The translations under genes were made by a program, and so were the position numbers. 64,000 bases of DNA from contig NZ_JAVDDX010000002.1 in the NCBI RefSeq assembly GCF_030848575.1, positions 1,302,001 to 1,366,000 of the forward strand. Direction: 5' to 3'. Shown here one piece after another: positions 487 to 5,084 of the stretch; the first letter of the stretch is position 1, and each line of letters opens with the position of its first letter. The stretch comes from Haloarcula sp. H-GB4. GTDB lineage: Archaea; Halobacteriota; Halobacteria; Halobacteriales; Haloarculaceae. Below the pieces are notes generated by a model. The model ran no database searches. It saw nothing but the letters and a program-made list of their open reading frames with translations, and was not told where the DNA came from.

Positions 487-759
487 ATGGACCGTATCTC
501 TGCACTCCGCAATATCGAAGAGGCGCTGGCCGAGTTCGAGGCCGGGTCGACGTCGCTGAGTGACCTCGAACGGGACGTTCGCGGGACTCTCCGGACCTAT
601 GCGACTGAGTTTGAGGGCGACCTGCAGGCCTATCGAGCACGCGGCGGGGCCACCGTGGACGGTCTCGTCGTCCTCGCACCGTCTGAGCCAGCGGCCCGCG
701 AGCGAGTACAGGACCTCGTCGCGGACGCCGGCGAATTCACCATTATAGCCGTTGAGTAG
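487..759 (+). CDS. Uncharacterised haloarchaeal protein, 90 aa, downstream of mcm
   Basis: I do not recognise a function. The protein is small and acidic. Its first half is predicted helical (SALRNIEEALAEFEAG), followed by a segment ending GLVVLAPSEPAARERVQDLV and a beta-like tail EFTIIAVE. There is no signal peptide, membrane helix or metal motif. The ATG sits one base after the mcm stop, so it is probably read on the same transcript and may be tied to replication only by position. After it come about 165 bases with no gene; that stretch holds a 12-bp palindrome at 815-826 and the box A of the next gene near 898. Confidence 0.8.
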   Translation: MDRISALRNIEEALAEFEAGSTSLSDLERDVRGTLRTYATEFEGDLQAYRARGGATVDGLVVLAPSEPAARERVQDLVADAGEFTIIAVE

Positions 760-926
760 ACCTTTTCGAGCAGCGTGGCCCCTATGACATATTCCACACT
801 ACCCCTACAGTACTGACTCCGGAGTCCGACTGTCTCCCTCTATCTTTCTTGCCGACTGGCATATATTCAGACTAAATCTACTTCAATTCAGTAAAATTTT
901 ATAGTAATAATAGCAATGTCTAGCCA

Positions 927-1262
927 GTGCTACTCGTCGTCACGTACTCCCGGGCGGCACGCAGAGACCTGCGGAACGTCTGTCGTGCCCACGAAGACTG
1001 TGTCGTTCGGCAGTTCGGGAGAGCAGCGTTGTTCTCCGGAACTGAGTTCGGGGCCTTCCAGGCGCTTCGGCTTCACGAGAAACACGACCTTGACGTGCAG
1101 ATCGAGCACGTCGAACCGTTCGAGCCGACAGATGCTCCGGAGCATATCCGTGAGGCGGCCAAACGGTATGAGGCACGCGAGGAACCGGCGACCCCATACG
1201 AACGGTTCGCGTCGGGGCGTGACCTTCCGGACCCGGACCAACTCCGAGGCGTTGACCTGTGA
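927..1262 (+). CDS. Uncharacterised haloarchaeal protein, 111 aa, first gene of the MinD-linked cluster
   Basis: Function unknown. The start is GTG at 927: an AT-rich box A (ttttatagta, about 897-906) lies ~27 bases upstream, fitting a leaderless transcript. The protein opens with a hydrophobic strand (LLVVTYS), then a basic helix with two cysteines (CRAHEDC), suggesting a small alpha/beta fold, and ends in a charged helical tail. The last four bases GTGA overlap the start of the next gene, so translation of the two is probably coupled. It heads a four-gene run ending in a MinD-type ATPase. Confidence 0.78.
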   Translation: MLLVVTYSRAARRDLRNVCRAHEDCVVRQFGRAALFSGTEFGAFQALRLHEKHDLDVQIEHVEPFEPTDAPEHIREAAKRYEAREEPATPYERFASGRDLPDPDQLRGVDL

Positions 1263-2068
1263 AGCTCCGCATCACTGGAACCACGTACACGGGCGCTGTC
1301 GTCGACCTCCGAACCCGAACCGTCGACGGTCGGACCATCGCCGCAAGCATCCGCGGGCAGCAGTCCTTTCCGGTCGTTTCCTGCCCGGAACCGCCATCCG
1401 TGTACGCCTACGCCGGACACGTCCATCCATCGATGGGACTGCGAACACGGACTGCACTCGCAACTGCCGCTCGGTCACAGGGATACGAGACGCCACAGGA
1501 CGACGCTATCGCAGACTGCCACGCCCAGTTGGCCGAACTTGAGTGCTCGCCGCCGGAGCTGCCGGACCCTGTCGACCCGGTCCCGAAGTCGACCGTTGAC
1601 GGCCTGCAGGAAGCGGTCGCTACCCACCGGGGTCGCCTTACCGCTCGGCAGGCGATCGGTGCGGACGACGGGGCGGTACAGGCTGACCTCCGAGACGCGG
1701 CGACGGAACTGAGCGAACGAGAAACTCGACGGGCTGCCGCCAGAGAGACTCGCGAACTCCGCCGGGAGCGGGCACGCGCCTACCGGGACACGCTGGAGAA
1801 ACAACGCCGACTTGCCGACGAACTGGCCAACCTTCGGCGGAGCGCCCGGGCGACTCTCGTTGACCGGTGCGCCGATACGTTCGCTCGGGCCATCGAAGTT
1901 GTTCCCGGATCAGTTCCGGACGACCCGTTCGACGCCGACCCAGTAACGGCTGCCCTGGCCGTGCTCCGGATCGCCAAAACGCCTGCACCGGTCGTCCTCG
2001 AAACGGATCGGTTCAGGACGCCAGCGACCGCAGCGGACTGTCTCGACGCCCCCATCGTCCGTTGCTGA
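1259..2068 (+). CDS. Uncharacterised haloarchaeal protein with central coiled coil, 269 aa
   Basis: Function unknown. The gene starts with GTG inside the stop of the preceding gene (GTGA overlap at 1259-1262). Three parts can be seen: an N-terminal ~75-residue beta-rich domain containing the segment AGHVHPSMGLRTRTALA; a linker; and a charged helical region (about residues 135-195) dominated by Arg, Glu and Ala with heptad-like spacing, likely a coiled coil. The C-terminal ~70 residues form another small domain. No membrane helix or known catalytic motif is visible. The overlap and shared orientation with the MinD-type ATPase suggest a partner or structural role, which is inference. Confidence 0.75.
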   Translation: MKLRITGTTYTGAVVDLRTRTVDGRTIAASIRGQQSFPVVSCPEPPSVYAYAGHVHPSMGLRTRTALATAARSQGYETPQDDAIADCHAQLAELECSPPELPDPVDPVPKSTVDGLQEAVATHRGRLTARQAIGADDGAVQADLRDAATELSERETRRAAARETRELRRERARAYRDTLEKQRRLADELANLRRSARATLVDRCADTFARAIEVVPGSVPDDPFDADPVTAALAVLRIAKTPAPVVLETDRFRTPATAADCLDAPIVRC

Positions 2069-2100
2069 CTTTTAAATTGGAAGGCCGGGCCACCGTCGCT

Positions 2101-2868
2101 ATGGTGACTTTCGACTGTCGCGCCGAGCGAGTCGACGACGTGACGCTCGTCACGGCGACTGTCAGCGACATCGCTGAACCGACTCGAATTACTGTCCGGA
2201 ACTGTCTCGATGGTCCCCTCTGGCCGCCGAGAACGCAGGGCGTTCCTGCGGCTGGCTGGTCTGAGGACGGGTTCGAGGGTGTCATAAGACCGGGAACACG
2301 TGCCCTTGGGTACGCGACGCCGGCCCAACCGTCTGCCCAGCCGGCGGAGCTGGTGAGTGCCGCGCCAGCATCTGATAACACTGTCGCGGACGAGCGACTC
2401 GACTCTGCGAACGCCGTTCTCAGAGAACTTGGTGACCCGTCGCCGCCTGCTGCTGCCGTCCCAACAACTGAGTCGGTGGAGGCAGCCGAAGCCGCGAGTG
2501 CTGGGTCGCCCGGTCTAACGCTTGAACAAGACACCAAACTGCAGCCAGAGGGATGCCAACCGTCAGCCGAATCGAGGACTGTGGCCGGCCACCAGCCGGA
2601 CCAGCAACCTCCCGATGCAGTTTCGCAGTGGCTCGAAACCGTTGCTCGGCGGGTTGACCGTGCTGAGCGGCTGGCCGAGGTGGATTCGCTGTCGGCGGCG
2701 ACGGCTGCGGTTCGCGCGGCGGGCGGCCTGTCTGGCGTCCGGACAGTTGCGGCACGCGGCGATACTGATGAGCAAATGCTCCGGGCACTGGCCCGACGGG
2801 CCGAACGGCTTGCCGACCGACGAGCGGCTGCCACGGTACCGACCGAGACGCTGTCGCGCTTGGCATGA
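2101..2868 (+). CDS. Uncharacterised haloarchaeal protein, 255 aa, overlapping the MinD-type ATPase gene
   Basis: Function unknown. The frame is open further upstream, but the ATG at 2101 is preceded at ~27 bases by an AT-rich box (acttttaaattgg, about 2067-2079), so I take it as a leaderless start. The first ~80 residues look beta-rich (VTFDCRAERVDDVTLVTATV, then a Trp/Pro-rich stretch). A low-complexity Ala/Pro/Glu linker follows (about 85-165). The C-terminal ~80 residues are Arg/Ala-rich helices (WLETVARRVDRAERLAEV). Its stop overlaps the MinD-type start as ATGA at 2865-2868, a strong sign of coupled translation. Confidence 0.76.
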   Translation: MVTFDCRAERVDDVTLVTATVSDIAEPTRITVRNCLDGPLWPPRTQGVPAAGWSEDGFEGVIRPGTRALGYATPAQPSAQPAELVSAAPASDNTVADERLDSANAVLRELGDPSPPAAAVPTTESVEAAEAASAGSPGLTLEQDTKLQPEGCQPSAESRTVAGHQPDQQPPDAVSQWLETVARRVDRAERLAEVDSLSAATAAVRAAGGLSGVRTVAARGDTDEQMLRALARRAERLADRRAAATVPTETLSRLA

Positions 2869-3581
2869 TTCTGGCAGTCACCGGCGGTAAAGGCGGTGTC
2901 GGCAAGTCGACTATCGCGTACAACCTCGCAGCGGAACTTGACGCGTTCGAACGGACTGACAGCAGCGACTCGCGCCCGACTGCGAACACTGGGAGCGTCG
3001 TCGTCGACGGCGACCTCGGGATGGCGGACCTCCCGTCCAGTCATGGCCCCGACCTGCACGACGTTCTTGCCGACCGCGCTGACCCGCACGAAGCTGTCCG
3101 GGAGGGTGGTCCCGTGACTCTCGCCCCCTGCGGACGAACGCTGGCCGGTGCTCGCAGTGCCGACTTGCGAGCGCTCACAGATGTACTCGACGCGCTGGAA
3201 CGGACTTATCGCTGGGTCATTGTCGACTCGCCTGCTGGGATGCACGCCGACGTGGGACTGCCCCTTGCAGCAGCCGACGCCGCGGTACTCGTCACGACGC
3301 CGGAAGACGCGGCCCTCGCTGACGCGCTCCGGGTCAGGGCGCTGGCTCGCGAACTTGACGCCGGGCTCTGTCGGGTTGCCCTCAACCGCGCCGGTCCAGA
3401 TCCCGCGACTGGGGCTGTCGCGGACCGGTTCGGTGCGCCAGCTGTCGCTATCCCGAAAAGTGACCCGCTAGCCACGGCACAGGCACATGGACGACCGCTT
3501 CGAGACACAGCGCCGGACACGTCGGCTCGGCGCTCGCTCCAATCGCTCGCCGACGCCGTCTATTCCTGTAGCTCGGTGTAG
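2865..3581 (+). CDS. MinD/ParA-type deviant Walker ATPase
   Basis: This is a P-loop ATPase of the MinD/ParA (SIMIBI) class, whose members position or partition structures by ATP-dependent dimerisation. Residues 7-16 read GGKGGVGKST, the deviant Walker A with its signature lysine; VVVDGDLGMADL (about 45-56) is the switch I/A' segment; IVDSPAG (119-125) is the Walker B/switch II region. Length, 238 aa, suits a minimal MinD. I see no clear C-terminal amphipathic membrane helix. Haloarchaea carry several MinD paralogs; from memory the one beside mcm and tfb in Haloferax is called MinD1, which I could not verify here. Its 3' end overlaps the convergent tfb gene by 22 bases. Confidence 0.88.
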   Translation: MILAVTGGKGGVGKSTIAYNLAAELDAFERTDSSDSRPTANTGSVVVDGDLGMADLPSSHGPDLHDVLADRADPHEAVREGGPVTLAPCGRTLAGARSADLRALTDVLDALERTYRWVIVDSPAGMHADVGLPLAAADAAVLVTTPEDAALADALRVRALARELDAGLCRVALNRAGPDPATGAVADRFGAPAVAIPKSDPLATAQAHGRPLRDTAPDTSARRSLQSLADAVYSCSSV

Positions 3582-4589: not shown

Positions 4590-5084
4590 ATGACGCTGTC
4601 GGATATCGCCGCCGGTGTCGAGGTCACGACCCACCAGCGTGACCACGGCGTCGCTGCTGTCGACGAGACAGACGCGCCGCTCCAGGAGCGACTGGTCTCC
4701 GTGGCCGATGATCTCCCGTGCTCAGCGGCGACAGCGGCGACCGTCGTCGAGGCCTACGCAGCCGGCCGGAGTGTCGGCGATGCGGGCCGCGCTGCCGGTG
4801 TTGCACCCGTGATGGCCGCCAAGACGCTCCATCTCGTCGGTGAACAGGTCTCGCCGGTCGGCCCACAGGGCCGTGAGATAATTGCCGATTGGCTTGCCGG
4901 AGACCTCTCCCGCAGTGACGCCATCGCACTCGCTGACGTGACTGAACAGGAGTTTGCCCTGGCTGTGTACATCGAGACGCACGACCCGCTGCCCGCGGCC
5001 CGTGACGCCGTCGAGGGGGCGCTTACAACTGAGGACCGGGACCCGTTAGGAGAGACGATGAGCGACGTCGGCGAGCTGTTGTGA
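4590..5084 (+). CDS. Uncharacterised haloarchaeal protein, 164 aa, divergent from tfb
   Basis: Function unknown. ATG at 4590 follows a box A (cattaaatt) at about -29, so a leaderless start is likely. The protein is acidic and mostly alpha-helical, with an Ala-rich segment (ATAATVVEAYAAGRSVGDAG, about residues 48-67) that reads like a helix-turn-helix-type helical bundle: GRSVGDAGRAAGVAPVMAAK resembles a recognition-helix pattern. DNA binding is therefore possible but unproven. The final codons (MSDVGELL) are copied again 61 bases downstream, see 5058-5145. Confidence 0.75.
   Translation: MTLSDIAAGVEVTTHQRDHGVAAVDETDAPLQERLVSVADDLPCSAATAATVVEAYAAGRSVGDAGRAAGVAPVMAAKTLHLVGEQVSPVGPQGREIIADWLAGDLSRSDAIALADVTEQEFALAVYIETHDPLPAARDAVEGALTTEDRDPLGETMSDVGELL

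Follow-up and report, generated by a model that had tools for sequence, protein, structure and literature searches.

Four genes at the locus

We analysed a 64,000-nt stretch of DNA from Haloarcula sp. H-GB4 (NZ_JAVDDX010000002.1, positions 1,302,001-1,366,000, forward strand), hereafter the window, in which four open reading frames lie on the same strand and overlap at a GTGA and at an ATGA sequence (Table 1), as an earlier note on this DNA had described. The three proteins listed there as uncharacterised (111, 269 and 255 aa) are the products of real genes, belonging to the Pfam families DUF7855, DUF7856 and DUF7857, and the last gene does encode a deviant-Walker ATPase, with a KGGVGKS motif and matches to the MinD family. 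Mean column identity in the DUF7855 alignment is 58%. Near mcm and tfb, the block is flanked by DUF7854 (window 487-759) and DUF7858 (4590-5084), both conserved Pfam families without a function.

Table 1 Genes, overlaps and putative promoter elements of the four-gene block (window coordinates).
Feature	Position	Strand	Description
DUF7855 (PF25253)	927-1262	+	111 aa, GTG start; Pfam E 6e-49
DUF7856 (PF25254)	1259-2068	+	269 aa, GTG start; Pfam E 2e-65
DUF7857 (PF25256)	2101-2868	+	255 aa, ATG start; Pfam E 2e-31; candidate MinD1 partner
MinD1	2865-3581	+	238 aa; deviant-Walker ATPase, KGGVGKS, D48/D50, Walker B D121
GTGA overlap DUF7855/DUF7856	1259-1262	+	likely translational coupling, pair A
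ATGA overlap DUF7857/MinD1	2865-2868	+	likely translational coupling, pair B
TATA-like box TTTTATAG	897-904	+	30 nt 5' of DUF7855 GTG; likely pair A promoter (leaderless)
TATA box TTTTAAAT	2070-2077	+	31 nt 5' of DUF7857 ATG; likely pair B's own promoter

In H. volcanii, mcm is HVO_0220 (PMC3972481) and minD1 is HVO_0225 (PMC11588486), five loci after mcm by locus numbering, which is the same neighbourhood as in the window. Gene order and these locus positions together identify the ATPase as the counterpart of H. volcanii MinD1, and from the locus numbers its partners should be HVO_0222-0224, with DUF7857 corresponding to HVO_0224. H. volcanii, a control in the profile searches, has matches to all three of DUF7855, DUF7856 and DUF7857. 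The function of MinD1 is undescribed, and for haloarchaeal MinDs a clear MinE-like partner protein has yet to be identified (PMC11621097); no partner of H. volcanii MinD1 has been described so far. Literature on HVO_0221-0224, on HVO_0227 or under the DUF names was not found among the papers searched.

Overlaps and promoters point to two transcription units

The 4-base overlaps are too frequent to be chance: an overlap of exactly 4 nt joins DUF7857 to MinD1 in 111 of 115 loci (51/52 and 60/63 in two sets) and DUF7855 to DUF7856 in 38 of 51; no fusion of DUF7857 to MinD1 was seen among the same 115 loci. In the window, DUF7856 and DUF7857 are separated by a 32-bp gap which contains a TATA box. 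A pattern search placed a TATA element at -30 to -32 of DUF7857 in 43 of 47 loci, and a TATA-like element was present upstream of this gene in 45 of 66 further loci. With the same pattern search, such an element was found within -36..-20 of DUF7855 in 30 of 49 loci, before none of 41 DUF7856 starts and before none of 48 MinD1 starts. The gap and TATA box between the second and third genes suggest that the block probably comprises two leaderless bicistronic units, DUF7855-DUF7856 (pair A) and DUF7857-MinD1 (pair B), and not one four-gene operon.

MinD1 is a divergent deviant-Walker ATPase

Across 96 MinD1 sequences K9 and D121 are invariant and nearly all carry KGGVGK[ST]; both the signature lysine and the Walker B aspartate of the deviant-Walker ParA/MinD ATPases are therefore in place. 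MinD1 scores 110.2 bits against the archaeal MinD model TIGR01969, below its trusted cut-off of 201.75, and three other paralogues in the genome score 191-196 bits. Its closest solved structures are archaeal MinDs, and its best Pfam match is a NUBPL/Mrp-type P-loop model. Inspection of the MinD1 alignment revealed no conserved CxxC metal motif, and no membrane-targeting tail was seen in the C-terminal sequences, whose last 12 residues are not hydrophobic (mean hydrophobicity -0.29) and contain on average 1.2 large hydrophobics, as calculated from sequence.

The MinD1 proteins of loci L104 (G007) and L165 (G001) read KGGVGTS and so have another residue in place of the second lysine of Walker A; ATP hydrolysis may therefore be lost in both. 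A cysteine lies within the last 8 residues (window 3555-3578) of 30 of the 96 MinD1 proteins, some of which end in CxxV. On the opposite strand directly after DUF7858, many haloarchaea encode a conserved MinD-like protein (L012:8199-8954, L101:7817-8563 and ~27 further loci, absent at this spot of the window) whose Walker A is degenerate, reading GG[AV]G[TA]TR in nearly all cases and having no Walker lysines.

Co-occurrence and gene order in haloarchaea

The census covered 145 genomes of the class (Halobacteria), in which MinD1 orthologues were set apart by score (at least 236 bits, against at most 159 for paralogues); the orthologue clade has a support of 98 in the MinD1 tree, although one long-branch paralogue falls within it. 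DUF7857 and MinD1 occur together in 100 genomes, DUF7857 alone in 4, MinD1 alone in 1 and neither in 40 (phi 0.92), and the sole MinD1-only genome carries a divergent DUF7857. In MinD1-bearing genomes, MinD1 lies directly downstream of DUF7857 on the same strand for all 102 of 102 DUF7857 copies, including copies away from mcm, horizontally spread copies and two duplicates. Outside the class, no match to DUF7857 above the cut-off was obtained in 247 genomes of the phylum.

The four genomes with DUF7857 and no MinD1 belong to one genus (L109, L187, L188 and L192; G037, G036, G099 and G049), which has lost MinD1 but also retains DUF7855 and DUF7856; DUF7857 may therefore have some use that is independent of MinD1.

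Pair A is likewise nearly always complete, with DUF7855 and DUF7856 together in 88 genomes, DUF7855 alone in 4 and DUF7856 alone in none. DUF7856 adjoins DUF7857 in 79 of the 84 genomes with both, and the two pairs are apart in the remaining five (G013, G065, G097, G135 and G141). DUF7857-MinD1 occurs without DUF7856 in 20 genomes, and DUF7856 without a detected DUF7857 in 4. The idea put forward in the earlier note, of a module in which three partners stay beside their ATPase, is thus right in a sharper form, of one strict pair and one looser pair: the gene order bears it out for DUF7857, which in MinD1-bearing genomes lies next to MinD1 essentially without exception, while DUF7855 and DUF7856 make up a separate tight pair that usually adjoins DUF7857.

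The order mcm-DUF7854-...-tfb-DUF7858 is widely retained, and from this link with mcm and tfb a role in replication, segregation or positioning had been proposed. Pair B lies away from mcm in many genomes, however, and in Halovenus all four genes stand together without mcm, tfb or DUF7858 in the fetched flanks. Proximity to mcm and tfb is optional and a replication role is therefore unsupported, as nothing beyond position ties the MinD1 unit to replication or segregation.

Joint movement and coevolution

A short form of DUF7857 (~120 aa), without the helical tail, is found with MinD1 proteins that form one clade (support 99 in the MinD1 tree). As this clade spans three families (f1, f3 and f7) and includes two second copies, DUF7857 and MinD1 appear to have moved together, and horizontal transfer of the short cassette as a unit is the most likely explanation on the basis of the tree; a plasmid search found no short cassette on plasmids. 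Of the 20 genomes without DUF7856, 18 have a DUF7857 of no more than 130 aa, and none of the 78 with DUF7856 does. The tail was lost in a single clade, the one that also lost DUF7856, and since the correlation amounts to one evolutionary event on the tree we treat it as a hint and not as a test.

In the clade with the short cassette, a gene for a ~430-aa MinD-like ATPase with a KGGCGK motif and a C-terminal extension (L121:5720-7000, L123:5438-6790) often lies convergent to MinD1. Homologues of this protein were found next to the cassette at 11 loci other than L121, and the genome of the window itself has one at L005 (G000:C1:1621204).

A mirror-tree analysis of 28 loci, corrected by regression for the distances of TFB, DUF7858 and DUF7854, gave residual correlations of 0.30 for DUF7857-MinD1 (p 0.002), 0.26 for DUF7855-DUF7856 (p 0.010) and 0.22 for DUF7856-DUF7857 (p 0.012), and none that was significant for the other three, non-neighbouring pairs. 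Joint recombination of neighbours could also produce such a signal.

Predicted folds of DUF7857 and DUF7856

The model of DUF7857, which the earlier note had anticipated as beta-rich with a helical tail, consists of an Ig-like beta sandwich (residues 1-90, pLDDT ~97) that starts with a strand at 3-11, a low-confidence linker (~90-170) and C-terminal helices (172-254, pLDDT ~95). V17, P43, R44 and G70 are invariant in the alignment, and much of the conservation is concentrated in one PPR..GW loop (consensus GPVWPPRRxGVPxxGW). A fold search of the PDB returned generic Ig-like sandwiches (best Z 6.9), and PDB profile searches with DUF7855, DUF7856 and DUF7857 gave weak matches at best, mostly coiled-coil or helical. 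The usual activators of ParA/MinD ATPases have a positively charged disordered N-terminus (PMC10241942), which is absent from DUF7857, as the protein starts in a strand and has a net charge of -1.6 over its first 25 residues.

The coiled coil expected for one of the partners is present in the AF2 model of DUF7856 (pLDDT 95.4, pTM 0.80), where it is long and includes a 77-residue helix; the head is built from N- and C-terminal lobes. The top eight Foldseek matches are SMC or Rad50 heads, all weak (E 7e-3 to 0.1), and comparison with these heads gave a VIA Z of ~9 over 259-261 residues, below the trusted level for helical models. A relationship with SMC/Rad50 was examined by hhalign, using whole proteins and heads, a reversed-profile control and shuffle tests. 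Probabilities against haloarchaeal SMC/Rad50 heads were below 5%, and the best match of the N-lobe covered 5 residues (ARSRG), for which seven of seven unrelated control profiles scored higher, so that homology has no support from sequence. The DUF7856 model is like SMC/Rad50 in its predicted head, in which a coiled coil connects the N- and C-terminal lobes, but DUF7856 differs in that neither a Walker A P-loop (GxxGxGKS) nor an LSGG signature is present in its alignment and neither profile-profile comparison nor shuffling lends support. We treat the likeness of the model as shared architecture alone.

Discussion

Since DUF7857 stays next to MinD1 through relocation, transfer and duplication, comparative evidence makes it the best candidate for the dedicated partner of MinD1. 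We lean towards a two-protein unit in which MinD1 is a switch, DUF7857 its dedicated partner and the tail of DUF7857 a connection to a second partner. MinD1 would be a switch of the ParA/MinD type that dimerises in an ATP-dependent manner, cycling between an ATP-bound dimer and a monomer. The Ig-like domain of DUF7857 would bind it through the PPR..GW loop, and would stimulate its hydrolysis, block hydrolysis or link MinD1 to a client, while its variable linker and its tail of helices would extend to a second partner; DUF7855-DUF7856 would be the likeliest, and there the coiled-coil protein DUF7856 would be the natural candidate for contact with the tail.

This arrangement resembles the bacterial ParA/MinD systems with ParB, MinE or McdB, where a deviant-Walker ATPase is also adjoined by a lineage-specific second protein. 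DUF7857 differs from these proteins in placing a folded beta strand first instead of a charged disordered peptide, and for MinD1 no membrane-targeting tail was seen. A precedent is H. volcanii MinD2, another MinD paralogue with a conserved neighbour in the same operon, HVO_0596, with which contact is predicted (PMC11588486), although HVO_0596 lies downstream of MinD2 and DUF7857 upstream of MinD1. The retention of DUF7857 without MinD1 in one genus and its atypical N-terminus count against the partner model, as do the lack of a phenotype on deletion of HVO_0596 and the fact that division and growth were unaffected when all four minD genes were deleted (PMC11588486).

The conserved arrangement could instead reflect inertia, the mcm region being seldom rearranged in haloarchaea with no functional tie among its genes, and the wide retention of the mcm-DUF7854-...-tfb-DUF7858 order, together with that of neighbours without known ties, speaks for this view. 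We nevertheless consider it quite unlikely, and given the relocated copies it is disfavoured for pair B in particular: this pair is intact when away from mcm, duplicated or transferred, the four Halovenus genes moved as a block, without mcm or tfb, and pairs A and B separate from one another while each almost always stays whole. A single obligate complex of the four proteins, with MinD1 as its driver, is likewise unlikely. The adjacency of DUF7856 and DUF7857 in 79 of 84 genomes, their mirror-tree signal (p 0.012) and a helical tail that is nearly always found with DUF7856 and mostly missing without it speak for such a complex; against it stand the 20 genomes with pair B but no DUF7856, the 4 in which DUF7856 is present and no DUF7857 was detected, and the separate TATA boxes of the two pairs.

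A different possibility, which we take seriously while thinking it rather less than probable, is that MinD1-DUF7857 is an ATP-dependent switch or chaperone-like unit in the style of Get3/ArsA or Mrp, and not a positioning system. A C-terminus in which no membrane-targeting tail was seen, the score of 110 bits against an archaeal MinD trusted cut-off of 201.75, the NUBPL/Mrp-type model as top Pfam match and a deletion without division phenotype (PMC11588486) are consistent with it; archaeal MinDs as the nearest solved structures and an alignment without a visible conserved CxxC metal motif argue the other way. Very improbable, in our judgement, is a reading in which DUF7856 is related to the heads of SMC/Rad50, in a miniature form that is free of nucleotide, and in which MinD1 acts on it via DUF7857, in a chromosome-organising or replisome-positioning system; if true, it would mean that a MinD-type ATPase is coupled to an SMC-like scaffold in haloarchaea.

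With DUF7857, the orphan MinD1 gains a specific and testable partner candidate in the genetically tractable H. volcanii. If the two-protein unit proposed here is correct, a partner that presents an Ig-like fold first would be of unusual build, and would widen the range of regulators of ParA/MinD ATPases.
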